64,000 bases of DNA. Origin: Halobacterium wangiae (lineage in GTDB: Archaea; Halobacteriota; Halobacteria; Halobacteriales; Halobacteriaceae). The notes under the pieces were generated by a model. It did no database searches. It was not told the origin of the DNA and saw only the letters and a program-made list of their open reading frames with translations. Position numbers and translations under genes: made by a program. Shown here piece after piece: positions 46,164 to 63,334 of this stretch. The stretch spans positions 3,038,001-3,102,000 of the forward strand of contig NZ_CP089588.1 in the NCBI RefSeq assembly GCF_021249345.1, written 5' to 3'. Position 1 is the stretch's first letter; the number at the start of each line of letters is the position of its first letter.

Positions 46164-46946
46164 ATGAGCAGTCGGACACTCCTCACCGGCGCGACCGGCA
46201 CACTCGGGCAGGCGTTGCTCCCGCGACTCCGCGACGACGGCCACGACGTACTCGCGGCGAGTCGGTCGCCGCCGGCCGACGACGACACGGCGTGGCAGAC
46301 TCTGGACCTGGTCGACGGAACCGGCCTGGAGGCCGCGGTGAGCGACGTCGACGTCGTCGTTCACGCGGCCACGGCTCCACAGGGAGACAGCGAGGCCGTC
46401 GACGTCCGCGGGACCGAACGACTCGTCGAGGCGGCCGCCGACGCCGGCGTCTCGAACGTCCTCTACGTCTCCATCGTCGGTGTCGACGAGATCCCGCTCT
46501 CCTACTACCAGCACAAACACGAGGCAGAACGGGTCGTCGAGGCGAGCGAGGTTCCGTCGACCGTCGTCCGCGCGACGCAGTTCCACTCGTTCCTCGGCGG
46601 GCTACTCGACGGGGTGTCCCGGCTCCCCGTCTGGCCGCTCCCGACGAAGCTACGCCTCCAGCCGATAGCCGTCGAGGAGGTAGCGGACGCCGTCGTCGAA
46701 CACGCCACACCGGACCCGGCGGGTCGAGTGCCGGTCGTCGGCGGTCCCGAAGTGCGGACGCTGGGCGACCTCGCCAGGGCGTACCGCGCAGCGAGAGGGC
46801 TGCGCCGCCCCGTCGTGCGCCTCCCGCTGCCCGGGAAGGTCGCCCGCGGGTTCCGCGCCGGAGACGCGACATGCCCGGACCGGACGGTCGGCACGACCAC
46901 GTGGGACGAGTGGCTAGCCGGTCGATACGACCAGGAGACGGCATGA
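46164..46946 (+). CDS. NAD(P)-binding atypical SDR (NmrA/complex I-like)
   Basis: A 260-residue extended/atypical SDR. LLTGATGTLGQALLPRL at the N-terminus is the TGxxGxxG nucleotide-binding motif. The rest follows NmrA-type reductases: no classical YxxxK is clear (a YYQHKHEAE segment at about 112-120 is possible). The C-terminus RTVGTTTWDEWLAGRY is typical of haloarchaeal homologues. Its stop overlaps the next gene by ATGA. Confidence 0.83.
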   Translation: MSSRTLLTGATGTLGQALLPRLRDDGHDVLAASRSPPADDDTAWQTLDLVDGTGLEAAVSDVDVVVHAATAPQGDSEAVDVRGTERLVEAAADAGVSNVLYVSIVGVDEIPLSYYQHKHEAERVVEASEVPSTVVRATQFHSFLGGLLDGVSRLPVWPLPTKLRLQPIAVEEVADAVVEHATPDPAGRVPVVGGPEVRTLGDLARAYRAARGLRRPVVRLPLPGKVARGFRAGDATCPDRTVGTTTWDEWLAGRYDQETA

Positions 46947-47946: not shown

Positions 47947-48732
47947 CTACGAGTCCCGGAGCGCCGCGAACTCCTCGCGGACGATGGCGGCGTGGGCGTC
48001 CGTGACGTGCTCCAGGACGGTCTCGCCGGCTTCGGCGGTCGCCGGACTGGCGTCGCCCAGAACGCCGTTGTCCGCGTGCGTCTCGACGCCCTCCGCGAAC
48101 AGCGCCGCCGCGGACACCGGGCCGGTGTACCCCTCGGGGAGGTCGTCCGCGACGAGTTCGGGAGCGACGGCGAGCACCATCGCCGTCTCGCTCGCGCCCG
48201 CGTGGACGACCGGCTCTTCGACGTCGATTCCCGCCTCCCGGAGCCCCGACTCCAGCAGTTCCATGTAGCGTCTGAGTCCCGTGACCGCGATCACGTCGAC
48301 GTCCGTCTCGCGCGCCAGTTCCGGGAACGCGGCCTCGACGACCGGGAACGAGCCACCGTGTCCGGGGAGGACGACGACGCGCTCGAACCCCTGTGCTTCG
48401 AACGAATCGACGTAGTCCCGGAGGAGCGCGGTCAGCGTCTCCGGAGAGACGGAGATCGTCCCCGGGAAGCCCGTGTGTTCGGTCGAGGGACCGACCGGAA
48501 TCGCGGGGGCGACTAACGCGCCCCCGAGTCGTCGCGCGACGCGCTCTGCGAGTTCGGCGGCGAGTCGCGTGTCGGTGTCGAGTGGGAGGTGGGGGCCGTG
48601 CTGTTCGGTCGCACCGAGGGGGACGACGACGGTGTCGACGCCCCCCTCCAGGGCCGCTTCGACGTCTGTCCACGACAGTTCCGCGAGCCGCACACTGTCG
48701 CGGTCGGCCGTTTCCTGGTCGTCCTCGTCCAT
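47947..48732 (-). CDS. mftE: Mycofactocin peptidase MftE (creatininase family)
   Basis: A 261-residue creatininase-fold metallohydrolase. LGATEQHGPHLPLDTDT (metal-binding E.HG.HLP..TD), LPGHGGSFPV and HAGASETAMVL are the family motifs. In mycofactocin synthesis MftE cleaves the modified precursor to release the C-terminal Val-Tyr derived dipeptide. Its divergent position 109 bases from the MftA precursor gene makes that role much more likely than creatinine or F420-type chemistry. ATG at 48730-48732 is chosen; a GTG 24 bases upstream is an alternative. Confidence 0.88.
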   Translation of the reverse strand: MDEDDQETADRDSVRLAELSWTDVEAALEGGVDTVVVPLGATEQHGPHLPLDTDTRLAAELAERVARRLGGALVAPAIPVGPSTEHTGFPGTISVSPETLTALLRDYVDSFEAQGFERVVVLPGHGGSFPVVEAAFPELARETDVDVIAVTGLRRYMELLESGLREAGIDVEEPVVHAGASETAMVLAVAPELVADDLPEGYTGPVSAAALFAEGVETHADNGVLGDASPATAEAGETVLEHVTDAHAAIVREEFAALRDS

Positions 48733-48841: not shown

Positions 48842-48967
48842 ATGTCACAGACGGCCGCCGACGGAGACGACGACGCCGAACTGGACGCCGACGCCGAGGA
48901 GCCGGAGATTGAGGAGGACCTCTTCGAGGAGGAACTCCGGATCGACGGCATCTGCGGCGTCTACTGA
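48842..48967 (+). CDS. mftA: Mycofactocin precursor peptide MftA
   Basis: A 41-residue, extremely acidic peptide (MSQTAADGDD...) ending IDGICGVY. The C-terminal -GVY with the upstream IDGxC motif is the mycofactocin precursor signature: MftC decarboxylates and crosslinks the terminal Val-Tyr, and MftE releases it. The leader is longer in Asp/Glu than bacterial ones, as expected in a halophile. ACGTATTTGG about 27-34 bases before the ATG is a plausible promoter. The stop is one base before mftB. Short genes of this kind are easily missed. Confidence 0.93.
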   Translation: MSQTAADGDDDAELDADAEEPEIEEDLFEEELRIDGICGVY

Positions 48968-48968
48968 G

Positions 48969-49211
48969 ATGCCAGCGACCGTCTTCCGGCCCGCCCACGT
49001 CAAGTTCCGGCGGGAACCCGAGGGAGGTCTCGTCTACGACCACGAGAACTACGGCTACGAGGACGCCTCGATGTACGCCGTCAGCGACACCGTCATCGAC
49101 GTCCTGGAGTTCGTCGAGGAGCCGCGACCCCGTTCGGAGGTCGAAGCCGCGTTCTCGCCGGCCGTGGTCGACTCGCTGGTCGAGCGCGGGGTGCTCTCGG
49201 ATGGCGGGTGA
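48969..49211 (+). CDS. mftB: Mycofactocin precursor chaperone MftB
   Basis: An 80-residue PqqD-like protein that should hold the MftA leader and present it to the radical SAM enzyme. Sequence RPAHVKFRREPEGGLVYDHENYGYEDASMYAVSD follows the MftB/RRE pattern, with a C-terminal helix-rich part around VEAAFSPAVVDSLVERGVL. It starts 1 base after mftA and overlaps mftC by 11 bases. Assignment is by sequence and exact context. Confidence 0.9.
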   Translation: MPATVFRPAHVKFRREPEGGLVYDHENYGYEDASMYAVSDTVIDVLEFVEEPRPRSEVEAAFSPAVVDSLVERGVLSDGG

Positions 49212-50160
49212 ACCGCTGTCCGCGCCGGTCACCATCACCTGGGAGGTGACGCTGGGCTGTAACCTCCACTGCGACCACTGCCTCTCGGGCAGCGGACCCG
49301 GCCACCAGATGCCGAACGAGCTCACCACGGAGCAGGCCAGGGCGTTCATCGACGAACTCGACGAAATGGACGTCTTCCAGGTGAACATCGGCGGCGGCGA
49401 ACCGTTCGTCCGCCCCGACATGCTGGAACTGCTCGCAGAGCTCACGAGCCGCGACATCTCGACGTGCGTGAGCACGAACGGCACGCAACTCGACGAGGCG
49501 ACCCTCGACCGCGTCGAGGCGATGGACCCGCTGTTCCTGCAGGTGAGCATGGACGGCCTGCGCGCCGACAACGACGCCATCCGCGGCGACGGCGTCTACG
49601 ACCAGGTCCTCGACTCCCTCGAACGACTGGAGGACCGCGACATCGGGACGACGGTCAACACCGTGGTCACCCGCCAGAACGTCGCGGACCTCCCCGACAT
49701 CTACGACCTCGCGGAGGCCCACGGCGCGGGCCTGCGCCTCAACCGTTTCCGGCCCAGCGGACGGGGCGAGGACACCTGGGACGAGTTCCGACTCCGCGAG
49801 GACCAGATTCGGTTCCTCCACGAGTGGATCGAGGACCACCCCGACGTCCGGACGGGGGACTCCTTCTTCTACCTCAACGCCCTCGGCGAGGTGCGCAACA
49901 ACACCCTCAAGCAGTGCGGCGCGGGGTCGATGACCTGCCTCGTCGACCCGGTCGGCGACGTCTTCCCCTGTGCGTTCACCCAGTGGGACCACCTCGCGTC
50001 CGGCAACGTCGTCGAGGACGGCTTCCAGGCGGCGTGGGACGAGATCGCCAACCTCCGCAGCCAGATCGACGACCACGAGGGCTGTCCCGCCGTGGCGATG
50101 GGGAGTTCGGACCCGGACGGCGAGGACCCACAGCTCCGGGCCATCCTCTCTGGCGACTGA
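49201..50160 (+). CDS. mftC: Mycofactocin radical SAM maturase MftC
   Basis: A 319-residue radical SAM/SPASM enzyme. The [4Fe-4S] motif CNLHCDHC is at residues 20-27 (CxxxCxxC). GGGEPFVRPDM near 62 is the SAM-binding GGE region. The C-terminal SPASM-type Cys residues occur in QCGAGSMTC, FPCAFTQWD and GCPAV. MftC oxidatively decarboxylates the precursor Tyr and then joins it to Val. It overlaps mftB by 11 bases and is 6 bases before mftF. Confidence 0.95.
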   Translation: MAGEPLSAPVTITWEVTLGCNLHCDHCLSGSGPGHQMPNELTTEQARAFIDELDEMDVFQVNIGGGEPFVRPDMLELLAELTSRDISTCVSTNGTQLDEATLDRVEAMDPLFLQVSMDGLRADNDAIRGDGVYDQVLDSLERLEDRDIGTTVNTVVTRQNVADLPDIYDLAEAHGAGLRLNRFRPSGRGEDTWDEFRLREDQIRFLHEWIEDHPDVRTGDSFFYLNALGEVRNNTLKQCGAGSMTCLVDPVGDVFPCAFTQWDHLASGNVVEDGFQAAWDEIANLRSQIDDHEGCPAVAMGSSDPDGEDPQLRAILSGD

Positions 50161-50166
50161 CCCCGC

Positions 50167-51768
50167 ATGTCGGCTCCTGCCCAGGTGGAGCGTCGCGGCG
50201 AGTACCGGTTGCGCGACTCCGCCGCTATCGTCGGCAGTGTCCTCGTCTCGACGCAGCCACTCGTCGCCACGGGCCTCAACGACGCCGCCGTCGACCTCCT
50301 TGCGACGCTGGACGACGAAGCGTACCGGTCGCCGGCGACCGTCGCCGCGGAGACGACGTACGGCGTCGACGCAGTCGTCGACCTCTTTAAGCGCCTCCAC
50401 GAGCGCGGCTTCCTCGCTTGGCGCCCGGGACGCGACCCCTCGTTTCAGCCGCCGGTGTCGGTGGTCGTCACCGTCCGCGACGACCGCGAGCAACTCCTGG
50501 CGTGCCTCGACGCGCTCGCCGCACTCGACTACCCCGACTACGAGGTCGTGGTCGTAGACGACGGCTCCACCGACGGCACGCGCGAGGCCGCGGCCGGCCA
50601 CACGCTCGCCGTGCAGGGACGAATCAGGGTCGTCCAGGTAGGGTCGGCCGACGACCCGCTCGGCATCGGCGCGTCGCGCAACCGCGGCGTCGAAGCGGCG
50701 ACCCACGACATCGTCGCGTTCACCGACGCCGACTGCCGTCCGACGGCGGGGTGGCTCGCCGACCTCGTGCCGTGTCTGGCGGGCCACGACCTGATCGGCG
50801 GGCGCGTCCGGCCGGCGGGCGACAGCACGGCGAGCGCCTACGAGGGCGTCGCCTCCTCGCTGGACATGGGCGCCTACGGCTCCCGCGTCGACCCGCACGG
50901 CGACACGCCGTACCTCCCGACGGCGAACCTCGTGGGCCGCAGAGCCGTCTTCGAGGCCGCCCCGTTCCCCGACCGCGACGTCGCGGAGGACGTCGACGTC
51001 TGCTGGCGCGCGCTCGCCGCCGGCTTCGACGCCGTCTACACGCCCACGGGCGTCGTCCACCACGACTACCGGCGCTCGCACGGGGACCTCGCAGGGCGTC
51101 GGTCGACCTACGGCGCGTCCGAGGCGCTGCTCGCCAGCGAGTACGGCCGACAGGGAACCCGTGTTCGCGTTCCACTCGACGCGCTCCTCGTCGTGGTCCT
51201 CGCCGTCGCCGGTCTGCTCTCGCCGGGAGTCACTGGGACGGTTGCGCTCGGTGCCGCGGGCCTCTTCGGCGGCGCCGGACTGCTCGCTCGACTCGCGACG
51301 ACCCTCCGGCAGTACCGGCGTCTGCAGTCGGTCGTCTCGGTCCGCGACGTCGTCCGGAGCCGGGGACGCGAAGCCGTCTCCACGGTGTATGCGCTCTCGC
51401 GGGAGGTGACGCGGTACTACAGCGGACCGGTCCTCGTCGTCGCGCTGCTCGCGTGGTTCGTGGCGCCAACCGTCGGCCTCGCGCTCGGGGCCAGCCTCGC
51501 CCTGGCTGCGCTCCTTCCGCTGGTCGTCGAGTACGCCGTCCACCGCCCCGGAGGGTCGTTCGTCGGCTACGCGGGCTACTACCTCGCCGACCAGGCTGGC
51601 TACCAGTACGGCGTCTACCGCGGCGCGTTCGGCCACCGCACGCTCGCCCACCTCGACCCGACCGGGCGGTTCCGACTCTCCGGACCCGGCGCTGGCCGAC
51701 TCACGAGCGCCAGAACGGGGGCGGTTCCGTCGTCGAACGTGGGGTCGGAGCGGAACCGGCTACAGTAG
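50167..51768 (+). CDS. mftF: Mycofactocin glycosyltransferase MftF
   Basis: A 533-residue protein. An N-terminal PqqD-like or winged domain (about residues 1-95) is followed by a GT2 glycosyltransferase: VVVTVRDDREQLLACLDAL, VVVVDDGSTDGTREAA and FTDADCRPTAGWLADL are the GT-A motifs. Two C-terminal helices (about 345-385 and 420-450) suggest membrane association. In mycobacteria MftF adds beta-1,4-glucose units to premycofactocin. Its stop overlaps the convergent etfB-like gene by 9 bases. Role by cluster context and full-length match. Confidence 0.92.
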   Translation: MSAPAQVERRGEYRLRDSAAIVGSVLVSTQPLVATGLNDAAVDLLATLDDEAYRSPATVAAETTYGVDAVVDLFKRLHERGFLAWRPGRDPSFQPPVSVVVTVRDDREQLLACLDALAALDYPDYEVVVVDDGSTDGTREAAAGHTLAVQGRIRVVQVGSADDPLGIGASRNRGVEAATHDIVAFTDADCRPTAGWLADLVPCLAGHDLIGGRVRPAGDSTASAYEGVASSLDMGAYGSRVDPHGDTPYLPTANLVGRRAVFEAAPFPDRDVAEDVDVCWRALAAGFDAVYTPTGVVHHDYRRSHGDLAGRRSTYGASEALLASEYGRQGTRVRVPLDALLVVVLAVAGLLSPGVTGTVALGAAGLFGGAGLLARLATTLRQYRRLQSVVSVRDVVRSRGREAVSTVYALSREVTRYYSGPVLVVALLAWFVAPTVGLALGASLALAALLPLVVEYAVHRPGGSFVGYAGYYLADQAGYQYGVYRGAFGHRTLAHLDPTGRFRLSGPGAGRLTSARTGAVPSSNVGSERNRLQ

Positions 51769-52617
51769 TTCGTTCTCGCGGAGGAACGCGACGACGCGCT
51801 GGGCGGCCTCCTCCGGGGGCGCCTCGATGCGCTCGCCGGCGCTCCGGGTCCTGCCGGTGCCCCGGCCGAGCATCCGGTAGATGCGCTCCTCGACTGTCCC
51901 GGTCCGCGGTGGCCGACCACGGCCCCAGCGTTCGTTCGGTCGCACGTGTTCGACGGTGGCCGCCCCGACGCTCATCGAGAACCGGGACTCGCCGGGCGCG
52001 ACGTCGGTCAGTTCCACCGTCTCGATGCTCGCTCGCCGGCCGGCGATGACCGTGTCGAGGGGCGCGCGCGTCGGGTTCGCGAACCCGGCGTCGACGCCGA
52101 CGACGGCCGGGAGGGCGACGGCGACGGCCTCCTGGCGCCCGATGGCGAGTTTGCGCTGGACAGCCAGTTCGTCCTCGCTCACCTCGACCGGGACGTCGAG
52201 GTGCTCCGGCCCGAGTTCGGTCGCCCGCGTCGCGCTCGGCCAGCCGAGTCGTTCGGCCGCGAGGCCCGCGATCTCAGAACCGGAGAACGACGATGACTGC
52301 CCGACGAACAGCGCGTCCGGTGACTCGCGGGCGGTCACGCGCGCGAGCACTGTCGCGAACTTCTCGCCGGCGGTGCGCTCGACCGGGTCGAAGGAGACGT
52401 GGACGCCCCGGTCGGCGCCCCGTTCGAGCGCGGAACGCACGCAGTCCTCGGCCGTCTCCCCGCCGACGCCGACGGCCGTGACCTCGTCGGCGACCTGGTG
52501 GGCGGCCTCAAGCGCGACGCGGTCGTCGATGCTCAACTGCCAGCGGTACGGGTCGGCGTTCCCGTCGTCGTCGACGACGCGGTGCGGTTCCGGGCGTGCG
52601 GTGACGACTGCTCTCAT
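51760..52617 (-). CDS. etfB: Electron transfer flavoprotein beta subunit (FixA-like)
   Basis: A 285-residue EtfB/FixA-type protein. It has the N-terminal EtfB beginning (VVTARPEPHRVVDDDGN), central FVGQSSSFSGSEIAGLAAERLGWP, the LAVQRKLAIGRQEAVAVALPAVVGVD segment and a C-terminal domain. It forms the ETF dimer with EtfA at 55.1 kb. It overlaps the SDR gene by ATGA. Position next to the mycofactocin genes suggests that ETF may carry their electrons, but this is inference. Confidence 0.9.
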   Translation of the reverse strand: MRAVVTARPEPHRVVDDDGNADPYRWQLSIDDRVALEAAHQVADEVTAVGVGGETAEDCVRSALERGADRGVHVSFDPVERTAGEKFATVLARVTARESPDALFVGQSSSFSGSEIAGLAAERLGWPSATRATELGPEHLDVPVEVSEDELAVQRKLAIGRQEAVAVALPAVVGVDAGFANPTRAPLDTVIAGRRASIETVELTDVAPGESRFSMSVGAATVEHVRPNERWGRGRPPRTGTVEERIYRMLGRGTGRTRSAGERIEAPPEEAAQRVVAFLRENELL

Positions 52618-53402
52618 CGTGCCGTGTACCCCCCGTCGACGGGAATCGTCGCCCCGGTCACGAACGCCGCGTCCGCCGACGCGAGGAACGCGATGGTGCG
52701 GGCGATGTCTACCGGGTCGGCCATCCCGAGCGGCGTCTCCTCGACCATCGACGCGAGCGTGTCGGGGACGTCGCTGTCGTCGCCGTCGTCGTCCATCGCC
52801 GCCTCCAGCATCGGTGTCTGGACGACGCCCGGGCAGATGGTGTTGGCCCGTATCTCCGGCGCGTACTCGACGGCGATGGAGCGCGTGAGCGAGACGAGAG
52901 CGCCCTTCGTCGCGGTGTAGACGTCCATCCCGGGTTCGGCGACGAGCGCCGCGATGGAGGCGTTGTTGACGACCACGCCCGTGCCGTCGCTCGTCTCGAG
53001 CATGGCGGCGATGGCGTGCTTGCAGGCGTACATCGGCCCCCGGAGGTTGATGCCGGTGAGGAACTCGTAGCCCTCCTCGGAGAACTCCGTGATGGGACCG
53101 TCGGCCTCCCGCGACGCGACGGCCGCGTTGTTGACGAGTACGTCCACGCTCCCGAACGTCTCCTCGGCGTGGTCGACCATCGCGGCCACGGCGTCCTCGT
53201 CGCTCACGTCGGTCTCGACGAACGACGCACTCCCCGCGGTCTCGTCGTCCGATTCGATGGACGCGACCGTCTGTTCGCCGCCGTCCGCGTCGAGGTCCGC
53301 GACGACCACGTCGGCTCCTCGCTCGGCGAGCACCCGCGACGTCTCTGCGCCGATCCCGCTCGCCCCGCCCGTCACGACGGCCGTTCGGTTGTCGAGTCGC
53401 AT
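52614..53402 (-). CDS. Classical SDR oxidoreductase
   Basis: A 262-residue NAD(P)-dependent SDR. VVTGGASGIGAET at residues 9-21 is the nucleotide site, NNAAVAS the NNAG-like motif, and YTATKGALVSLTR the catalytic YxxxK. It ends with PVDGGYTAR. It does not show the GQGRSHA motif of the mycofactocin-coupled SDRs at 61-64 kb, so it may use free NAD(P). It sits inside the etf operon, ATGA-overlapping etfB and 2 bases after fixX. Confidence 0.92.
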   Translation of the reverse strand: MRLDNRTAVVTGGASGIGAETSRVLAERGADVVVADLDADGGEQTVASIESDDETAGSASFVETDVSDEDAVAAMVDHAEETFGSVDVLVNNAAVASREADGPITEFSEEGYEFLTGINLRGPMYACKHAIAAMLETSDGTGVVVNNASIAALVAEPGMDVYTATKGALVSLTRSIAVEYAPEIRANTICPGVVQTPMLEAAMDDDGDDSDVPDTLASMVEETPLGMADPVDIARTIAFLASADAAFVTGATIPVDGGYTAR

Positions 53403-53404
53403 GG

Positions 53405-53695
53405 TCACCCGAAGTCGAACTCGACCCCCTTGCCGCCCTCCGACTTCGACCAGGAGACGGCGCCCTTCTCGGGGTCGTTCCCGCAGAACACCATGCAGGC
53501 GCCACACTCCACGCACGGTTCGTACGCGAAGTAGATGCCGCCCTTCTGGTCGGCCTGGTAGTCGAAGCACTCGGCGGGACAGAGGTGGAGACACGGTTTG
53601 TCCTCGCAGGTGACGCAGTAGTCGTTGTCGACGGTGATGTGGGCCGCCTCGCTGACGTCCCACTGCACCGTCTCGAGGCTGTCCTGGACACCCAT
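53405..53695 (-). CDS. fixX: Ferredoxin-like protein FixX
   Basis: A 96-residue ferredoxin-like protein with YCVTCEDKPCLHLCP and EPCVECGACMVFC, two Cys clusters as in FixX. It is the [Fe-S] part of the Etf-quinone oxidoreductase, working with the FixC-like flavoprotein at 53.8 kb. It is the first gene of the fixX-SDR-etfB unit. On its strand an AGTTATCAC box about 45 bases upstream could be its own promoter. Confidence 0.9.
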   Translation of the reverse strand: MGVQDSLETVQWDVSEAAHITVDNDYCVTCEDKPCLHLCPAECFDYQADQKGGIYFAYEPCVECGACMVFCGNDPEKGAVSWSKSEGGKGVEFDFG

Positions 53696-53799
53696 CAGTC
53701 CGTCCCTCCCCGGTTCGTCGGCTGGTGTGTGCTGTGATAACTCATCTCTGTGTTCTCAGTCGGCGTCGATGGTCATTGGTCTTTGGTCGGTTCGGACCC

Positions 53800-55113
53800 T
53801 CACAGCGAACGCAGCCCCCGGTAGCCGTCTTTCAGCAGGTCCAGAAAGCCGGCGTCGCTGTTGCGGAACGCGCGGTAGGCCTGCTTCCACGTCAACCCCT
53901 GAGCGTCGCTGCCGGCCGAGTACATCCCGCGCAACGTCTCCGTCGCGATTCCGGGGTAGGCGCCGTACATCCGCTCGTTCTTCAGGAACTCCGGGAGGTG
54001 GCGGTGCTGTTTCATGTCCTGGAGGACGTAGGAGTTCTCCAGCCACTGGTCGTAGCGCCGGCCGAACGCCTCCCAGTTGCCCTCGCGGTCGCAGGCGATG
54101 GCGGACTCCGCGGCGAGCAGACCGCTCTTGATGCCGTAGTCGAGTCCGCGGAACGTGTACCCCTTGTTGAGCACGAGACCGGCGGCGTCACCCACTAGCG
54201 CGATACGGCGGTCGTAGCGGTCCGGGAGCGACTCGTAGGAGAGTTCGGGCAGCAGGATTCCCTGGTACTCCTGGAGGCTCTCGCCCTGGACGTACGGCCG
54301 GACGGTGTCCAGTTCCACGAACTCCTCGAGCAGCGAGTACAGCGGCGTCCCGCTCTCCGCGTACCCCTCGTCGCCGAGCCACCGGAGCACCTCCAGGCCG
54401 CCGACGGCGCCGACCGAGATGTACTCGTCGTACGTGTAGATGAAGTAGCCGATGGTCGGCGCGCCCTCCGGGAAGCCCGTGTAGATGTACGCCGCGCCCT
54501 CGTCGCTGTCGAGGTTGAACCGCTCGTTGATGGTGTCACGACCGACGTCGATGACCTTCTTCACCGACAGCGCCATGTCCGGGTTGCGCATCGTCCGCTG
54601 GATGCCGGTCGCCCGCCCCACGGTGGTGTTCACACCGTCGGCACCGATGACGGCGTGACAGGCCAGGTCGCCGTTCTCGCGGTCGGTGTGGACGACCGCG
54701 TGGTCCCGGGCCTGCGTGACGTCTCGCACCGTGGTCTCCGGGACGAACACCGCGCCCTCGTCGACGGCGCGGTCGACGAACCAACGGTCGAACTTCCCGA
54801 GCATCAGCGTGTAGTTCGGCTCCTCGAGGAGGTCCATGTCGCGGTAGCCGATCGAGACCTCCGCGTCGCCGTGGAGCAGTTTGATGTTGTGCTCGACGAC
54901 GTGGCGCTCCAGGGGCGCCTCCTCGGGGAACTCGGGGACGAGGTCCGCGAGGATCTGTCCGTAGAGGACGCCCCCCGTGACGTTCTTCATCCCGGGCTGT
55001 TTCGCGCGCTCGACGAGCGCCACGTCGAAGTCCTCGGCGGCGAGTTTGTACGCGGCGGCGGTGCCGGCCCGACCCGCCCCGACGACCACGACGTCGAAGT
55101 CCACGGCCGTCAT
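53800..55113 (-). CDS. fixC: Etf-quinone oxidoreductase flavoprotein (FixC-like)
   Basis: A 437-residue flavoprotein. VVVGAGRAGTAAAYKLA at residues 8-24 binds FAD, GMKNVTGGVLYG follows, and DAAGLVLNKGYTFRGLDYGIKSG near 330 is the conserved FixC/Etf-QO second motif. It reduces membrane quinone with electrons from ETF. The ATG at 55111-55113 overlaps the stop of etfA (ATGA). The [4Fe-4S] part is on FixX. Confidence 0.92.
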   Translation of the reverse strand: MTAVDFDVVVVGAGRAGTAAAYKLAAEDFDVALVERAKQPGMKNVTGGVLYGQILADLVPEFPEEAPLERHVVEHNIKLLHGDAEVSIGYRDMDLLEEPNYTLMLGKFDRWFVDRAVDEGAVFVPETTVRDVTQARDHAVVHTDRENGDLACHAVIGADGVNTTVGRATGIQRTMRNPDMALSVKKVIDVGRDTINERFNLDSDEGAAYIYTGFPEGAPTIGYFIYTYDEYISVGAVGGLEVLRWLGDEGYAESGTPLYSLLEEFVELDTVRPYVQGESLQEYQGILLPELSYESLPDRYDRRIALVGDAAGLVLNKGYTFRGLDYGIKSGLLAAESAIACDREGNWEAFGRRYDQWLENSYVLQDMKQHRHLPEFLKNERMYGAYPGIATETLRGMYSAGSDAQGLTWKQAYRAFRNSDAGFLDLLKDGYRGLRSL

Positions 55114-56117
55114 TCGGCCACCTCCTCGGCGGCCTCGCCACCACTGTCGTCGCCCACCGCGGCCTCCCGGAGCGCCTCGACCAGCGCCGGCCCGTACTCG
55201 TAGACGTCGCCGACGATGCCCACGTCCGCGAAGTTGAAGATGCGGGCCTCGGGGTCGGTGTTGATGGGGATCAGGAACTCCGCGTTCACCGAGCGCATGT
55301 GGTAGGAGTCCCCGGAGATGGCGACGGGGACGTACAGTTCGACGTCGATCTCCTTGCCCGTCACGCCGATCTGGCGGTCGTAGGGCACCCAACCCTCGTC
55401 GGAGGGCGGGCGGGACGCGCCGACGGCGGCGCCGAGCGCGTCGGCCAGTTCGGTGACGAGGTCGAAGCCGTCCGGCGTGCCCAGACCGAAGCCGCCGGCG
55501 ACGATACGCCGCGCCTTCGCGAGGTCCGACTCGGGGACCTCGAACGTCTCGACGTGGCGGACCCGTTCGTCCGTCTCGACGTCGACCTCGACGGTGCGCT
55601 CGGCGGGCGCTCCGGTCGGCGGCGCCGAGGGCGTCCCGAGGGCCTCCGTGTTGAGCGTCACGACCGGCGGCCCGCGCTCGAAGGATATCTCGGCGTACGC
55701 CCGGCCGCCGTACGCCGTCCGACCGGCGAGCAGTTCGCCCTCGCGGACCCTGAGCAGGCAGTCGGTGACGCACCCGCCCCGAAGTCGCCGGGCCGTTGCC
55801 GCCGCGAGGTCGGTGCCGTCTGCGGTGTCCGGCAGGAGCACTGCACGGGCGTCCGCGGCGAGGTCCGCGAGCGCCTCACTCCGGGGGCGGACGCCGGCAG
55901 CCCCCGCGGTGAACGTCCCCTCCTCGCGAACGACGTGGACGACCTCGTCGGGGCTGCCGGCGCGCACCGCGGCCGGCTGGACGACTCCGTCGAACGCCAC
56001 GGCGACGACCGAGGGCGTGTCGCCCACCTGGTCGTCGAGCACCTCGACCAGCCGGTGTGCTTCTTCGAGTAGCGCTACGTCCTCGGACTCCGGAACGATG
56101 AGCAACTCTCCTGTCAT
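55110..56117 (-). CDS. etfA: Electron transfer flavoprotein alpha subunit (FixB-like)
   Basis: A 335-residue EtfA. The C-terminal FAD domain has RPPSDEGWVPYDRQIGVTG, AISGDSYHM and NTDPEARIFNFADVGIVGD, all typical. It pairs with EtfB at 51.8 kb. The N-terminal third is more diverged. It lies 73 bases downstream of the OYE-type gene and upstream of fixC, so the order is OYE, etfA, fixC, then the fixX-SDR-etfB unit. Confidence 0.94.
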   Translation of the reverse strand: MTGELLIVPESEDVALLEEAHRLVEVLDDQVGDTPSVVAVAFDGVVQPAAVRAGSPDEVVHVVREEGTFTAGAAGVRPRSEALADLAADARAVLLPDTADGTDLAAATARRLRGGCVTDCLLRVREGELLAGRTAYGGRAYAEISFERGPPVVTLNTEALGTPSAPPTGAPAERTVEVDVETDERVRHVETFEVPESDLAKARRIVAGGFGLGTPDGFDLVTELADALGAAVGASRPPSDEGWVPYDRQIGVTGKEIDVELYVPVAISGDSYHMRSVNAEFLIPINTDPEARIFNFADVGIVGDVYEYGPALVEALREAAVGDDSGGEAAEEVAE

Positions 56118-56190
56118 GGATTCCCTCGAACGGTCGTCGTGAGCGCGCTACTGCGGGCGAGGTGCCGCGAGCGGACCCGACGACGCGGGG

Positions 56191-58131
56191 TCATGCGGAC
56201 AGCTCCCTCGCCAGCATCTCGCCGTCGTAGATCGCCTTGTCGATGAGTCGCGGCGCGACGCAGTCGCCGATCCTGTGCACCGACCCCTCGTCGAACCCCT
56301 GCGCTTCGAGCGCTCCCGCGAGCCCGGTTCTGGCCTCCCGGCGCTCCGCGACGACCAGCGAGTCCGTCGGCAGCGTCGTCAGCTCCTCGGAGTAGACGTT
56401 GAGCAGTTGCAGCTCCTGGTCCTCGAAGCCGATGATGGTGTTGTGAGTCACGATGTCCACGCCGTGCTCGTACAGCGTCTCGAGGAACGGCGGGACGTTC
56501 GTCCCCTCCATCTGGTCGCCCGGATGGTACGAGGTCGTGACGAACGTGACGTCGTGGCCGCTCGTCGCGAGGAACTCCGCCACGCTGACGCCGGCCGCGT
56601 GCTTGTTGTTGTCGAAGACGACGACGGAGTCCCCGACCGGTTCGCCCTGTAGCACGTCCCAGGAGCGGTGGACGTCCGGGCCGGCGAGGTCCGGCTGGCG
56701 TTCGCTGGCGCCGATGGCGACCACGACGTCGTCCCACGCGCGCGGCGAGACGTCCGCCGGGGTCACCTCGGCCCCCAGTTCGACGGTGACGTCGCGGTTG
56801 TCGAGCTGGTTGCGGAGGTTGCGGACGGCGTCGCCGAACTCCCGCCGCGAGTCGACCTGTGTGGCGATGTTCGACTGGCCGCCAAGGTCGTCCTCGCGCT
56901 CGCGGAGCGTCACGTTCTGGCCGAGGTCGGCCGCCGTGACGGCGAACGACAGCCCCGCCGGGCCGCCGCCGACGACCAGTACCTCACGGGGCGACCGGGT
57001 CTCATCGACGTCCTCGACGTGCGGAATCTTCGTCTCGCGGCCGGAGCGCGGCGTCTGGATGCAGCCGACGTGGCCGTTCGTGTGGATGCCGCCGAGGCAG
57101 TTCTGGTTGCACGCGATGCAGTGGGTGACCTCCTCGTCCTCACCCTGCCGGACCTTCCGGACGGTGTCGGCGTCGCAGATGAGCTGTCGGCACATCCCGA
57201 TGAAGTCCGCGCGACCCTCCTCGAGGATGTCGTTGGCCTTCGTGAGGTCGTTGATGCGGCCGGCGGCGATGACGGGGATGTCGACGAGTTCCCGGGCGGC
57301 GCCGTAGTACTCGGCCGTGTAGCCCAGCGGCGCGTGCATCGGCGCGTCCGTGATGTACAGCTTCGAGATGGTGGCGATGTCCGAGTCGATGAAGTCCAGA
57401 CTCGGGTGGAGACGGCGGATGACCTCCACGGCGTAGTCGTAGTCGTAGCCGCCGTCCTCCATCTCGTCGAGCGAGAAGCGGATGCCGACCGGGAACTCCT
57501 CGCCGACCCGGTCGCGGATGGCCTCGACCACCTCGTTGACGAGGCGGACGCGGTTGTCGATGGAGCCGCCGTACTTGTCCGTGCGGTGGTTGTACTTCGG
57601 GGAGACGAACTGGCGGAGGATGCCGTCGTGGCCGGCCTTCAGTTCGACGCCGTCGAGGTCACCCTCCTTGCAGTGTTCGGCGGTCTTCGCGAAGCCGAGT
57701 TTCACCTCCTCGATGTCCTCCTGTTCCATCCGCTTGGGCATCTCGTAGCCGTACTCGGTCGGGACGGCCGACGGCGCCCACGTTTCCCGCATCGCTGCCT
57801 CGCCGGTGTCCTCGCCGCCGGTGTGCTGGAGCTGCGCGAACACCTTGGTGCCGTGGCGGTGGCAGGCCTCGGCGATCATCCGCAACCGGGGGACGACGTC
57901 GGGGTCGTACCCGGTCGCGTACATCGGGTTCGACGAACTCGGGTGGACGAGCATACTCGACGGACCGACGATGAGGCCGACGCCACCGCGGGCCCGCGCC
58001 TCGTAGTAGGCGGCGTCGCGCTCGGTCGGCAGGCCGTCCTCGGCGAAGCCCGTCTCGTGGGCGAGGAACACCGTCCGGTTCTTGACCGACACCGGGCCGA
58101 TCCGCCGTGGCGTGAAGAGCATCTCGGTCAT
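56191..58131 (-). CDS. OYE/FadH-type flavin oxidoreductase (mycofactocin-system type)
   Basis: A 646-residue enzyme of the 2,4-dienoyl-CoA reductase/OYE family. Residues 1-365 form the FMN barrel with VFLAHETGFAEDG, LQHTGGE and CRQLICDAD. The [4Fe-4S] cluster uses C338, C341, C345 and C357. The C-terminal part (about 385-646) has the FAD/NAD motif VVGGGPAGLSFAV. Families of this type recur beside mycofactocin genes in bacteria. The ATG at 58129-58131 is chosen; a second Met three codons on is possible. It probably reduces an enone or related substrate using ETF or NADH. Confidence 0.9.
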   Translation of the reverse strand: MTEMLFTPRRIGPVSVKNRTVFLAHETGFAEDGLPTERDAAYYEARARGGVGLIVGPSSMLVHPSSSNPMYATGYDPDVVPRLRMIAEACHRHGTKVFAQLQHTGGEDTGEAAMRETWAPSAVPTEYGYEMPKRMEQEDIEEVKLGFAKTAEHCKEGDLDGVELKAGHDGILRQFVSPKYNHRTDKYGGSIDNRVRLVNEVVEAIRDRVGEEFPVGIRFSLDEMEDGGYDYDYAVEVIRRLHPSLDFIDSDIATISKLYITDAPMHAPLGYTAEYYGAARELVDIPVIAAGRINDLTKANDILEEGRADFIGMCRQLICDADTVRKVRQGEDEEVTHCIACNQNCLGGIHTNGHVGCIQTPRSGRETKIPHVEDVDETRSPREVLVVGGGPAGLSFAVTAADLGQNVTLREREDDLGGQSNIATQVDSRREFGDAVRNLRNQLDNRDVTVELGAEVTPADVSPRAWDDVVVAIGASERQPDLAGPDVHRSWDVLQGEPVGDSVVVFDNNKHAAGVSVAEFLATSGHDVTFVTTSYHPGDQMEGTNVPPFLETLYEHGVDIVTHNTIIGFEDQELQLLNVYSEELTTLPTDSLVVAERREARTGLAGALEAQGFDEGSVHRIGDCVAPRLIDKAIYDGEMLARELSA

Positions 58132-58251: not shown

Positions 58252-58275
58252 ATCACGACCGTGTGTACTAGTGAC

Positions 58276-60270
58276 ATGGAGGAGTCGTACCCGTTCTCCG
58301 CCATCGTCGACCAGGGGGCGATGAAGCGGGCGCTGGTACTCAACGCCGTCAACCCCGACATCAGCGGCGTCCTCGTCCGGGGCGAACGGGGGACCGCGAA
58401 GTCCACGGCGGTCCGTGCCCTCGCAGACGTGCTCCCGCCAGTCGAAGTCGTCGCGGACTGTCCGTACCGCTGTCCACCGGGCGAGCGCGACCGGATGTGC
58501 GCCGAGTGCCGCGAACGAACGGACGCTGGCGAGCAACTCCCCGTCGAACACCGGCCGATGCGCGTGGTGGACCTGCCGCTGAACGCCTCCGAGGACCGCG
58601 TCGTCGGCAGCATCGACCTGCAGTCGGCGGTCCGCGAGGGGCGCCAGACGTTCGAACCCGGCATCCTCGCGGAGGCCAACCGCAACATCCTCTACGTCGA
58701 CGAGGTCAACCTCCTCGACGACCACATCGTCGACGTCCTGCTGGACGCGGCAGCGATGGGTGAGAACATCGTCGAACGCGAAGGCGTCTCCGTTCGACAT
58801 CCGGCGGAGTTCGTCCTCGTCGGCACGATGAACCCCGAGGAGGGCGAGTTGCGCCCACAGCTCCTCGACCGATTCGACCTGCTGGTGGACGTCGTAGCCA
58901 GCGGCGACGCCGACGAGCGCGTCGAGATCGCCGAGCGCCGGGAGCGCTTCGACGCGGACCCGGCGGCGTTTCGCGCGGCGTACGCCGACGAACAGCGCGA
59001 ACTGGCCGACCGGATCCGGTCGGCCAGACAGCGACTCACCGCCGTCGACGTCCCGACGTCGGTGTTGCACGAGGCGTCCTACGAGGCGGTCCGGCAGCGA
59101 GCGCACGGGATGCGGGCGGACATCGCCGTCAACCGCGTCGCGCGAACCATCGCCGCGCTGGACGGCGACGACGTGGTGAACGGCGCGCACGTGGCGGAGG
59201 CCCAGTACTTCGTGTTCCCCCACCGCGTCGAGGGCGTCGCCGAGATGTCCTTCGGCGAGGGCGTCATGTCCTCGGAGAGCGACGAAGAGGCGGTAGGCGA
59301 GGAGGACCAGGACGACGAACCCGAGGGCGACGACACCGCGGACACGGAGGGCGGCGGCCTCCCCATCGCGGAGGGCGAGGAGTCCTACGACGTCGACCGG
59401 ACCGCCATCGACCCGGAACGGGACCGGACGATGCGGGACGCGCTCGCGCGTCGGACCCCGTCGCGCGTCGCCGTCCGGAGCGGTCGCTACGTCCGCTCGC
59501 GGCTCCAGGAGGACGTCAACGACGTGGCCATCGACGCGACGGTCCGGGCGGCCGCACCCCACCAGCGGACGCGACAGCCCGAGGACCAGAGTGGCATCGT
59601 CGTCGAAGCACGGGACCTCCGGCAGAAGCTCCGAGAACGGACCGCGCGAGCGCTCGTCGTGTTCGTCGTCGACGCCAGCGGGAGCGTGATGAGTGGCCGC
59701 CAGATGATGGAGACCAAACGCGGCCTGCTGTCGCTCATCGAGGACGCCTACCGCGCCCGGGACCGGGTCGCCGTCGTCGTGTTCCGCGGCGAGAATGCGT
59801 TCACGCTCGTCGAGCCGACGCGGAACCACCGGATGGCCCGGGACGCCGTCTCGCGGTTGACCGTCGGTGGGAACACACCGCTTGCGCACGGACTCGTTGA
59901 GGCCTACCGCATCGTCGAACGCGAGAAGCGCCGCGACCAGGACCTGTACCCGCTGGTCGTCCTGCTGTCGGACGGCCAGTCGAACGTGGACTACCGCGAG
60001 GACGGCGACGCGAGGGAGGACGCGCTCCGCGCGGCGTCGCTGTTCGCCGACGCCGACGTCCCCTCGGTGTTCGTCGACACCGGCTACGAACTCGACACGA
60101 CGCCGGACGAGATCTGGACCGCACGGAAGGCCGAGCGGATGAAGCGCAAGCGCTTCGAGCGGAACCAGACGTTCGCGGAGACGATGGGCGCCGACTACCT
60201 GCCACTGGTCGAACTCCCGCGGGACACACAGCTCCCGACGGACCAGGACTCGGAGGGGCAGGAGGCGTGA
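58276..60270 (+). CDS. ChlI/ChlD-type ATPase with VWA domain
   Basis: A 664-residue fusion like magnesium or cobalt chelatase ChlID. Walker [10 protein letters not shown] is at residues 36-44 and Walker B region [12 protein letters not shown] near 141. An acidic linker (about 335-370) leads to a VWA domain with [14 protein letters not shown], the MIDAS DxSxS motif. No large chelatase subunit (CobN/ChlH) is seen nearby, so a metal-insertion role is not secure. It could act as a MoxR/VWA-like chaperone for a neighbouring enzyme. Start by TATA position. It shares long near-identical DNA with the next gene. Confidence 0.87.
58555..58847 (+). repeat. Copy 1 of a near-identical tract shared by two ATPase genes
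   Basis: Matches 60670-60962 at a constant offset of 2115 bases. Bases 58555-58619 are identical (65 of 65). From 58650 to 58847 there is one difference (58813 G, A at 60928). The neighbouring parts of the genes differ at many synonymous positions. Confidence 0.85.
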
Positions 60271-60342: not shown

Positions 60343-61428
60343 ATGACTGACCACGACACGACCCAGACGACACGCGACGCCCGGGAGACAGCGAGCCAGA
60401 CGTTCCCGTTCACCGCCATCGTCGACCAGGAGGAGATGAAACGGGCGCTGGTGCTCAACGCCGTCAACCCCGACATCGGCGGGGTCCTCATCCGGGGCGA
60501 ACGGGGGACCGCGAAGTCAACGGCCGTGCGTGCGCTCGCCGACGTACTGCCGGACATCGAGGTGGTCGCGGACTGCCAGTACAGCTGTCCACCGGACGAA
60601 CGCGACCGGATGTGCGCCGAGTGCCGCGAACGGACGGCTGCCGGGGAGGACCTCCCTTCACGCTCCCGACCGATGCGCGTGGTGGACCTGCCGCTGAACG
60701 CCTCCGAGGACCGCGTCGTCGGCAGCATCGACCTCGAGCGCGCCGTCCGGGAGGGCGAACGCGAGTTCGAACCCGGCATCCTCGCGGAGGCCAACCGCAA
60801 CATCCTCTACGTCGACGAGGTCAACCTCCTCGACGACCACATCGTCGACGTCCTGCTGGACGCGGCAGCGATGGGTGAGAACATCGTCGAACGCGAAGGC
60901 GTCTCCGTTCGACATCCGGCGGAGTTCATCCTCGTCGGCACGATGAACCCCGAGGAGGGCGACCTGCGCCCCCAGTTGCTCGACCGCTTCGGTCTCGTCG
61001 TGGACGTGGAGGGTGTCAACGAGGTCGACGACCGCGTCGAGATCAGCCAGCGGCGGGCGACCTTCGAGGCCGACCCGGACGCGTTCCGCGCGGAGTACGC
61101 GGCGGCGCAGGCGGACCTCCGGGACGACATCGTCGGGGCGCGCGAGCGCCTCCCGGCCGTCGAACTCGGCGACGACGTCGCGAGACTCGTCGCGGGGATG
61201 AACATCGAACTCGACGTCGACGGCCACCGTGGCGACATCACGCTGCGACGCGCGGCGCGGACGCTCGCGGCGTTCGAGTCGGAGCCGGCCGTCTCGGCGC
61301 GGACGGTGCGTCGCGTCGCCAGGATGGCCCTGAACCACCGACTCCAGCGGCTCCCGTTCGAGGAGGAAGAGAAGGACGTCATGAGCGCCTTCCACGACGT
61401 CCGCCGCGAACTGGGGTTGGAGGACTGA
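60343..61428 (+). CDS. ChlI-type AAA+ ATPase
   Basis: A 361-residue ATPase close to the N-terminal half of the previous gene. Walker [10 protein letters not shown] and Walker [13 protein letters not shown] are intact. It has no VWA domain. The 72-base gap and same strand suggest one operon. The two may assemble as a heteromeric ring, the shorter one acting as the plain ATPase. A tract of about 200 bases is almost identical between the two genes, probably by gene conversion. Confidence 0.87.
60670..60962 (+). repeat. Copy 2 of the near-identical tract
   Basis: Second copy of the tract described at 58555. The identity includes synonymous third positions, which is not expected for old paralogues. 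Confidence 0.85.
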
Positions 61429-61654: not shown

Positions 61655-62476
61655 ATGCCACAGTACGACTTCGACGGCCAGGTCGCGTTCGTCACCGGTG
61701 CCGGACGCGGTCAGGGTCGCTCGCACGCACAGCACTACGCACGAAACGGCGCCGACGTCGTCCTCACGGACATCTGTGAGAACGTCGAGACCAACCCGTA
61801 CGACCTCAGTACGCCGGACGACCTCGAAGAGACGGCGAGTCTCGTCGAGGACGAGGGCCAGCAGGCGCTGCCCATCGAGATGGACGTCCGCGACGAGGCC
61901 GAGGTACAGGCCGCCGTCGAGGAGGCCCTCGACGAGTTCGGCCGCATCGACATCCTCGCGAACAACGCCGGCATCTTCAACGGCTCGGAGATGACCGAGA
62001 TGGACGAGCAGATGTGGGACGAGATGATCGACACCAACCTCAAGGGTGTCTGGCTCTGCTCGAAGCACGTCGGCAAGCACTTCATCGACCGTGGCGACGG
62101 CGGCAAGATCGTCACGACGTCCTCGACCGCAGGGTACGTCGGGACGCCGCTGAACGGCCACTACGTCGCCACGAAACACGGTGTGCGCGGGATGACGAAG
62201 ACGCTCGCCCTCGAACTCGCGGAGTACGACGTCAACGTCAACGCCGTCGCCCCGACCGGCATCGAGACCCCGATGATCTCGGGCTACGTCGAAGCCTACG
62301 GCGAGGAGACGCTCAACGAGATCGCGGAGATGACCGGCCCCTTCAACCTGTTCGGCGACGGCGGGATGATCGGCGCGGAGCACATCAGCGAGGCGTACAT
62401 GTGGCTCTCCAGCGACGCCGCTCGCTACGTCACCGGCATCACGCTCCCCGTCGACGCCGGATTCACCGCGAAGTGA
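61655..62476 (+). CDS. Mycofactocin-coupled SDR, copy 1
   Basis: A 273-residue SDR of the nicotinoprotein type. The cofactor loop reads GAGRGQGRSHAQHYAR, the GQGRSHA motif of the mycofactocin-coupled SDR subfamily, and DICENV follows the second strand. It has NNAGIFNG and the catalytic YVATKHG (YxxxK). It ends PVDAGFTAK. Members hold NAD tightly and pass hydride to mycofactocin. Its AUG follows a strong promoter region. The substrate alcohol is unknown. Confidence 0.92.
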   Translation: MPQYDFDGQVAFVTGAGRGQGRSHAQHYARNGADVVLTDICENVETNPYDLSTPDDLEETASLVEDEGQQALPIEMDVRDEAEVQAAVEEALDEFGRIDILANNAGIFNGSEMTEMDEQMWDEMIDTNLKGVWLCSKHVGKHFIDRGDGGKIVTTSSTAGYVGTPLNGHYVATKHGVRGMTKTLALELAEYDVNVNAVAPTGIETPMISGYVEAYGEETLNEIAEMTGPFNLFGDGGMIGAEHISEAYMWLSSDAARYVTGITLPVDAGFTAK

Positions 62477-62506: not shown

Positions 62507-63334
62507 ATGGTAGAATACGACTTCGGCGGCAAGGTGGCGTTGGTCACTGGTGCCGCCCACGGCCAGGGACGGTCGCACGCACAGCACTACGCGAGACACG
62601 GCGCCGACGTCGTCGCACTCGACCTCAACGAGAACAAGGACACCGTACCCTACGACCTGGGGACGAGCGACGAACTCGAGGAGACAGCCCAGATGGTAGA
62701 GGACGAAGGCCAGCAGGCCCTCACCGTCGAGGCCGACGTCTCAGAGGAGGCCGAGGTACAGGCCGCCGTCGAGGAGGCCCTCGACGAGTTCGGCCATATC
62801 GACATCCTCGCGAACAACGCCGGCATCGAGTCCATCGCGGAGGCCACGGAGATGAACGAGGAGACGTGGGACGAACTCGTCGACGTCAACCTCAAGGGCG
62901 TCTGGCTGACCGCCAAGCACGTCGGCAAGCACTTCATCGACCGCGGCGACGGCGGCAAAATCGTCAACACCGCCTCGACGTCCGCCTTCTCGGGCGTCCC
63001 CATCGGGAACGCACACTACGTCTCGGCCAAGCACGGCGTGCGGGGCATGACGAAGACGCTCGCCCTCGAACTCGCCGAGTACGACGTCAACGTCAACGCC
63101 GTCGCACCCACTGCCATCGACACGCCGATGGTGAGCGGCATGGTCGAGGCCTACGGCGAGGAGGTGCTCGACGAGGGCGCCGCGGCGCTCGCCGGACCGT
63201 TCAACATCTTCGACCCGGACGAGATGCTCGAGTCGAGGGACATCAGCGAGGCGTACATGTGGCTCTCCAGTGACGCCGCTCGCTACGTCACCGGCATCAC
63301 GCTCCCGGTCGACGCGGGGTTCCTCGCGAAGTGA
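62507..63334 (+). CDS. Mycofactocin-coupled SDR, copy 2
   Basis: A 275-residue paralogue with GAAHGQGRSHAQHYAR, DLNENK, NNAGIESI and YVSAKHG. It is 30 bases after copy 1. Differences from copy 1 lie mainly in the substrate region (residues about 90-110, 140-155 and 185-230), so it may use another alcohol. Several segments are nearly identical at the DNA level to copies 1 and 3. Confidence 0.92.
   Translation: MVEYDFGGKVALVTGAAHGQGRSHAQHYARHGADVVALDLNENKDTVPYDLGTSDELEETAQMVEDEGQQALTVEADVSEEAEVQAAVEEALDEFGHIDILANNAGIESIAEATEMNEETWDELVDVNLKGVWLTAKHVGKHFIDRGDGGKIVNTASTSAFSGVPIGNAHYVSAKHGVRGMTKTLALELAEYDVNVNAVAPTAIDTPMVSGMVEAYGEEVLDEGAAALAGPFNIFDPDEMLESRDISEAYMWLSSDAARYVTGITLPVDAGFLAK

Follow-up and report, generated by a model that had tools for sequence, protein, structure and literature searches.

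The 64,000-nt stretch of Halobacterium wangiae DNA analyzed here (referred to as the window, with coordinates counted from its first letter) contains a mycofactocin biosynthesis cluster that is faced by a block of flavoprotein genes. It derives from a genome that consists of a single 3.11-Mb contig and is 99.9% complete. On the plus strand, the cluster comprises mftA (positions 48842 to 48967), which encodes a 41-residue precursor with the C-terminal sequence IDGICGVY (TIGR03969, 34.6 bits; cutoff, 25); mftB2 (48969 to 49211), which encodes the chaperone (NF043018, 131 bits; cutoff, 62); mftC (49201 to 50160), which encodes a 319-residue radical SAM maturase (TIGR03962, 303 bits; cutoff, 265) whose SPASM domain is shortened in alignments; and mftF (50167 to 51768), which encodes the glycosyltransferase (TIGR03965, 296 bits; cutoff, 280). 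While the products of these four genes pass the curated cutoffs of their profile models, the mftE-like gene on the minus strand (47947 to 48732) encodes a creatininase-family peptidase (Pfam creatininase, 230 bits) that scores just under the cutoff of TIGR03964 (155 bits; cutoff, 172), yet this is its best-matching family.

Six intact minus-strand genes in the order OYE-etfA-fixC-fixX-SDR-etfB run from position 58131 down to 51760 and face mftA-mftB2-mftC-mftF. The OYE (56191 to 58131), which we refer to as OYEa, combines an FMN-binding TIM barrel, a [4Fe-4S] site, and an FAD domain with a second Rossmann fold that has no NAD(P)H motif; it matches TIGR03997 (mycofact_OYE_2) with 630 bits (cutoff, 793), and the next model scores 331 bits. 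The etfA gene (55110 to 56117) encodes an electron transfer flavoprotein (ETF) alpha subunit with its FAD domain (PF00766, 89 bits; NF038209 mft_etfA, 128 bits; cutoff, 240), and etfB (51760 to 52617) encodes the beta subunit (Pfam ETF, 75 bits; TIGR04503 mft_etfB, 89 bits; cutoff, 200); the two subunits exceed the gathering thresholds of PF01012 and PF00766. Between them lie fixC (53800 to 55113), which encodes an FAD oxidoreductase of the ETF-quinone oxidoreductase (Etf-QO) type (265 and 242 bits with the PRK10015/FixC subfamily models, both below cutoff); fixX (53405 to 53695), which encodes a FixX-like 4Fe-4S ferredoxin identified with FixX and 4Fe-4S models and by synteny; and a gene for a short-chain dehydrogenase/reductase (SDR) (52614 to 53402; NF005559, 230 bits; cutoff, 215). 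Adjacent genes of the block overlap by 4 bp or are separated by at most ~100 bp, and these overlapping starts and stops and short gaps suggest that the block from OYE to etfB is a single transcription unit. The ends of etfB and mftF converge with a 9-bp overlap. An earlier note on this DNA had placed etfA, fixC, fixX, etfB, and an OYE beside the mycofactocin cluster, and it was right about the presence, integrity, and position of all five.

MftC was found at 74% or higher identity in 13 of the 391 halobacterial genomes sampled, which represent seven genera and four families. Orthologs of OYEa (at least 72% identity) and of EtfA (at least 41% identity and at least 248 bits) were present in each of these 13 genomes and absent from the remaining 378, the next-best EtfA in any halobacterial genome scoring 136 bits (P = 1.5e-24, Fisher's exact test, a value that ignores kinship). 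OYEa sits in the mycofactocin locus in 13/13 genomes, and the gene order around MftC, OYEa, and EtfA is conserved across the halobacterial islands. The etf/OYE set was never seen without mftC, contrary to the possibility, which the earlier note had raised against its own proposal, that the set is equally frequent in genomes that lack mft genes. Given the same distribution (13/13 versus 0/378), we rejected chance gene adjacency. Given that MftC, OYE, and EtfA are all missing from the 12 other genomes of the genus Halobacterium, the locus is an accessory island; it is plasmid borne in Haloterrigena and Halolamina. The SDR gene that the earlier note had observed inside the block is indeed there, but it is not a core component, since it occurs in 9 of the 13 islands and its product does not belong to the mycofactocin-coupled family (TIGR03971 is not among its best 25 families, the best of which is NF005559).

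The absence of MftD and MftG from the window, also described in the earlier note, extends to the rest of the chromosome, so neither gene lies just beyond the window's ends. No protein encoded by the 3.11-Mb genome scored above the cutoff for MftD (TIGR03966; best match, 144 bits; cutoff, 471) or MftG (TIGR03970; best match, 42 bits; cutoff, 387), and both best matches are outside the window, that for MftG being a GMC protein whose PF00732 score is 46 bits. A 404-residue protein of the hydroxy-acid-oxidase family was evaluated as a potential hidden MftD but was discarded: it scores 144 and 74 bits against the cutoff of 471, it is encoded 1.7 Mb away, and 8 of the 13 mycofactocin-positive genomes have no counterpart of it. 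Neither MftD nor MftG exceeded its cutoff in any of these 13 genomes, and in the 8 that have no close hydroxy-acid-oxidase homolog, matches to the MftD model are weak (28.5 bits or less). GMC proteins of three other genomes that match the MftG model with 244 to 248 bits also fall below the cutoff of 387 and were rejected as MftG.

Beyond the Halobacteria, the comparison covered plasmids, through which the Actinobacteria were sampled and for whose hosts the locus alone was seen, and 395 genomes of the phylum to which one deltaproteobacterial metagenome-assembled genome belongs. Across the three groups, 35 mft loci carry the OYE without MftD, and 5 carry MftD without the OYE. Five annotated Streptomyces plasmid loci have the order mftA-mftB-mftC-OYE1-OYE2-etfA-fixC-fixX-etfB, followed by mftE and, in most, also mftF; neither mftD nor mftG is close by. 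A sixth Streptomyces plasmid, which is unannotated, carries OYE2 and EtfA. The plasmid of Streptomyces NBC_00080 has mftD and mftG in place of OYE/ETF, and on those of Tsukamurella, M. chubuense, and Thermomicrobium, the locus includes mftD but not OYE/ETF. In the deltaproteobacterial phylum, MftC is found in 18 genomes, 15 of which encode an OYE_2 that scores above cutoff; in one more, a contig end truncates the OYE_2 gene. MftD exceeds its cutoff in a single genome (G775), which has no OYE_2 above cutoff and no OYE/ETF in its mftC and mftD regions, and one genome (G536), whose mftC contig stops 0.3 kb past the gene, was left unassigned. Most deltaproteobacterial loci share the order mftC-OYE-etfA-fixC-fixX-etfB with Streptomyces. 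Two deltaproteobacterial genomes (G441 and G679) have two MftC copies each, and the locus of the second copy has no recognizable OYE/ETF block.

On a tree of MftC sequences, the MftD genome G775 is nested in a 100/100-supported clade of OYE/ETF genomes, and the Streptomyces OYE/ETF loci cluster with the MftD loci of Streptomyces, Mycolicibacterium, and Tsukamurella, distant from the archaeal OYE/ETF loci. These placements imply that MftD and OYE/ETF have been exchanged at least twice. Repeated exchange is what functional replacement predicts, and it is hard to explain if OYE/ETF has an unrelated role. Mutual exclusion in three groups and two swaps on the MftC tree lend strong comparative support to the suggestion in the earlier note that the OYE may replace MftD.

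Among proteins of solved structure, OYEa is closest to dienoyl-CoA reductase, NCR, histamine dehydrogenase, and trimethylamine dehydrogenase (TMADH). It keeps the FMN barrel, the first nucleotide-binding motif, and, following the TIM barrel, the [4Fe-4S] motif CX2CX3CX11C (CIACNQNCLGGIHTNGHVGC). The second Rossmann fold lacks GxGxxG (VVVFDNNKHAAGVSVAEFLA in OYEa and VVVYDDDHYYLGGVVAELLA in histamine dehydrogenase), and the stretch of OYEa that aligns with histamine dehydrogenase, GDSVVVFDNNKHAAGVSVAEFLA, contains no NAD(P)H motif. The NADPH-binding GxGxxG, a trait of the FadH 2,4-dienoyl-CoA reductase, is missing from all of the mycofactocin OYE_2 proteins aligned at this position, which come from all three groups. 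The OYE_2 proteins of the three groups also retain the cluster region and one active-site histidine, which is invariant in the mftC-adjacent OYE_2 type (ELKAGHDG, ELQCSHSS, and ELQFGHSS) and missing from the second OYEs. In several bacterial mycofactocin OYE_2 proteins, an aspartate replaces the second cysteine of the [4Fe-4S] motif (CxxDNQxC), with the remainder of the motif intact. A structure of the OYE predicted from seven close sequences had a mean pLDDT of 57.5 and was not used for fold comparison.

An OYE-type enzyme without an NAD(P)H site that is encoded with its own ETF and Etf-QO would most simply be an ETF-linked dehydrogenase. The substrate that histamine dehydrogenase deaminates is a primary amine, as is that of the MftD step, and we therefore propose OYEa as a candidate for this step. 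MftD converts the cyclized core AHDP to pre-mycofactocin (PMFT) by oxidative deamination of a primary amine, and mycofactocin is abolished in M. smegmatis without MftD (PMC7491314). In TMADH, electrons pass from the [4Fe-4S] cluster to ETF (PMC8097209).

In the scheme that we infer for each chemical step, for the electron path, and for the division of labor between the OYEs, MftA, MftB2, MftC, and MftE would produce AHDP, and OYEa, an FMN/[4Fe-4S]/FAD protein built like histamine dehydrogenase and TMADH, would oxidatively deaminate it to PMFT, the redox-active alpha-keto amide. The electrons would leave OYEa singly through its iron-sulfur cluster to the dedicated EtfAB and from there pass through FixC-FixX, which is of the Etf-QO type, to the quinone pool rather than to O2 or NAD(P). 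MftF would then glycosylate the product, and the array of mycofactocin-coupled SDRs described below would oxidize their substrates while reducing mycofactocin to mycofactocinol. The OYE/ETF/FixCX chain, perhaps via the second OYE of the island (OYEb), may also reoxidize mycofactocinol and pass the electrons to quinone, as MftG does. Based on gene content and comparative evidence, we consider it somewhat probable that these genes form a redox module dedicated to a second kind of mycofactocin system, one that does without MftD and in which OYEa carries out the MftD step. More tentatively, archaea and bacteria may possess a second, O2-independent route to mature mycofactocin, in which an ETF-linked iron-sulfur flavoenzyme deaminates the core to the keto amide and delivers electrons from this step, and subsequently from mycofactocinol, to the respiratory quinone pool, and which has been exchanged for MftD more than once.

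Several observations weigh against this interpretation. OYEa falls short of the TIGR03997 cutoff (630 of 793 bits) and is a divergent sister that would not be filed as a member, and EtfA (128 of 240 bits with NF038209) and EtfB (89 of 200 bits with TIGR04503) also fall short, even though these are their best families. By overall score, the top solved structure for OYEa is NADPH-dependent dienoyl-CoA reductase (254 bits, compared to 182 bits for histamine dehydrogenase). Of the Tyr-x-x-His pair of TMADH, the histidine is kept, but the tyrosine is a lysine in Halobacteria and a glutamine in bacteria; the cysteine that carries the covalent 6-S-cysteinyl FMN of TMADH is absent, the OYEa motif being HETGFAE. 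Two OYEs occur in Halobacteria, in Streptomyces, and at some of the deltaproteobacterial loci, which leaves their roles ambiguous in each of the three groups; the paired OYEs group by lineage on a tree, suggesting parallel duplication. In addition, the plasmid hosts could carry a chromosomal MftD, related genomes in the counts are not independent, and a tree of EtfA leaves the halobacterial mycofactocin ETF unplaced between the bacterial mycofactocin ETFs and the housekeeping haloarchaeal ETF. Since this tree is uninformative, a common origin with the bacterial ETFs is argued from gene order.

The alternative that survives best, although we regard it as unlikely, is that OYE/ETF/FixCX is a mycofactocinol:quinone oxidoreductase that does the job of MftG, the MftD step being performed by an unlinked enzyme or not needed. 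This would fit the absence of an above-cutoff MftG from 13/13 mycofactocin-positive Halobacteria and of an annotated MftG from the five Streptomyces OYE/ETF loci, and a 2025 study reported MftG to be missing from about a quarter of MftC genomes without settling what takes its place (PMC11778925). An ETF/Etf-QO route to quinone would also suit an electron carrier, and the midpoint potential of PMFT, -255 mV, is low enough (PMC7491314). However, the block swaps with MftD, not with MftG: MftD is accompanied by neither a neighboring MftG nor OYE/ETF in the loci of Thermomicrobium, M. chubuense, and G775. Moreover, the 8 of 13 Halobacteria without a close MftD-family protein would be left with no enzyme for AHDP deamination. 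The related suggestion in the earlier note that ETF and Etf-QO reoxidize mycofactocin is possible, and reoxidation of mycofactocinol by the same chain in addition to the MftD step is plausible given the potential of PMFT and would supply an answer to the question of what stands in for MftG (PMC11778925). We rate it lower because the exclusion pattern suggests that the gene displaced was mftD and not mftG, and it is less direct because the simplest role of the ETF would be that of electron acceptor of the OYE, as in TMADH.

A catabolic function is improbable. The OYE could be an ene-reductase or ETF-linked dehydrogenase for the substrates of the SDRs, such as terpenoids, steroids, or amines, with the island as a catabolic locus: BaiCD is the second-best family of OYEa (331 bits), the neighboring SDR arrays vary from 2 to ~9 copies, and in carveol-type pathways, SDRs of the mycofactocin-coupled type are paired with an ene-reductase. 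Nevertheless, it is the OYE and ETF that are invariant in three distant groups while the SDRs and context vary, and the missing NAD(P)H motif, together with the presence of ETF and Etf-QO, suits a dehydrogenase and not a reductase. A catabolic role would also leave the exclusion of the biosynthetic gene mftD unexplained. Finally, although etfB, etfA, fixC, and fixX form the layout of FixABCX, it is very doubtful that the block is a functionally unrelated electron-bifurcating complex that lies beside the mycofactocin genes by chance, since its EtfA ortholog never occurs without MftC in 391 Halobacteria, the same neighbors recur in three groups, and EtfB scores merely 34 bits with the FixA model.

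The candidate users of the cofactor lie beyond OYEa, toward the end of the window and past it, and were missed by the earlier note, as was the second OYE. A tandem array of six mycofactocin-coupled SDRs matches TIGR03971 with 331, 314, 316, 316, 318, and 334 bits (cutoff, 300); two of these nicotinoproteins are encoded entirely within the window (61655 to 62476, 331 bits, and 62507 to 63334, 314 bits, both on the plus strand), a third, also above cutoff, begins at 63360 on the plus strand and continues past the window end at 64000, and three more lie outside, followed by OYEb. The latter (contig positions 3106007 to 3107932; TIGR03997, 443 bits) is located ~4 kb beyond the window end, at the far end of the island. 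A second OYE and at least two mycofactocin-coupled SDRs are present in 13/13 mycofactocin-positive Halobacteria, with SDR copy numbers ranging from 2 to ~9 among the other islands. Between OYEa and the SDR array, on the plus strand, are genes for a Mg-chelatase/VWA-type protein that is syntenic in halobacterial islands (58261 to 60270; TIGR02442, 665 bits; cutoff, 779) and its partner, a BchI-like AAA ATPase (60343 to 61428; TIGR02030, 449 bits; cutoff, 467). This pair is also found in the Haloterrigena and Halolamina islands, and by eye, an AAA/VWA-like pair is located near mftC in the MftD-type deltaproteobacterial genome G775. Upstream of mftE are an NmrA-like atypical SDR and a UspA protein (46164 to 46946), which were not seen close to mftC in any other halobacterial locus of the synteny comparison.

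MftC itself differs between haloarchaea and bacteria. The SPASM stretch CX2CX5CX3C...C is absent from 14/14 haloarchaeal MftC proteins compared (318 to 319 residues; that of the window and 13 others), which retain only C-x6-C, GDVxPC, and EGC of this region, and it is kept in every bacterial MftC of the alignment. The sequences thus suggest that one auxiliary iron-sulfur cluster is missing from the haloarchaeal enzyme.

Compared to the mycobacterial mftABCDEFG system, with which it shares MftA, MftB, MftC, MftE, MftF, and mycofactocin-coupled SDRs, the system in the window lacks MftD and MftG, has OYE, EtfAB, and FixCX, and has a shorter MftC without the second SPASM cluster motif. The wiring therefore differs from that of mycobacteria, as the earlier note had supposed, but it is not peculiar to Halobacteria, since NCBIfam labels the same Streptomyces set as mycofactocin associated. 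In Streptomyces mft loci (e.g., NZ_CP108009 and NZ_CP107797; families TIGR03996, TIGR03997, NF038209, and TIGR04503), OYE2-etfA-fixC-fixX-etfB likewise follows mftC, mftD and mftG are absent from the locus, and a mycofactocin-coupled SDR is adjacent in 3/5. The halobacterial block differs from these loci in that it follows mftF on the opposite strand and includes one OYE, the other lying at the distal end of the island; its proteins score below the cutoffs of these families, and its SDR comes from another family. The cluster on Haloterrigena turkmenica pHTUR01 is the same island, with an 82% identical OYE, the same ETF block, and the SDR array, except that it has no SDR inside the etf block. 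OYEa resembles TMADH and histamine dehydrogenase in its FMN TIM barrel, [4Fe-4S] site, nucleotide domains without an NAD(P)H motif, and active-site histidine, whereas it lacks the covalent-FMN cysteine, has Lys/Gln for the tyrosine, and scores lower with these enzymes than with dienoyl-CoA reductase. While TMADH uses ETF as its acceptor (PMC8097209), for OYEa, a link to ETF is suggested by gene adjacency.

The archaeal mycofactocin cluster of pHTUR01 has been known since Haft 2011, which also recorded that the MftD family is not universal; the OYE/ETF block of this plasmid is not a topic of the relevant passages of that paper. That OYE and ETF are associated with mycofactocin was already known from the NCBIfam models for "mycofactocin-associated" ETF alpha and beta and for "mycofactocin system FadH/OYE" 1 and 2, and no paper combining "mycofactocin" with "electron transfer flavoprotein" was found among the open-access papers searched. 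The present analysis adds the shared distribution of MftC, OYE, and EtfA in Halobacteria, the finding that MftD is excluded in three groups and was exchanged repeatedly, the missing NAD(P)H site, and the mechanism to which these observations would lead.

MftD builds the redox-active part of mycofactocin, and MftG hands the electrons of the cofactor back to respiration. The OYE/ETF/FixCX set provides a concrete, testable candidate for the replacement of MftD, and perhaps of MftG, in archaea and bacteria, naming the enzyme, its acceptors, and model loci. If the proposal is true, the cofactor would be made and recycled via ETF and quinone rather than via FMN oxidase-like and GMC enzymes, which would suit anaerobic producers.

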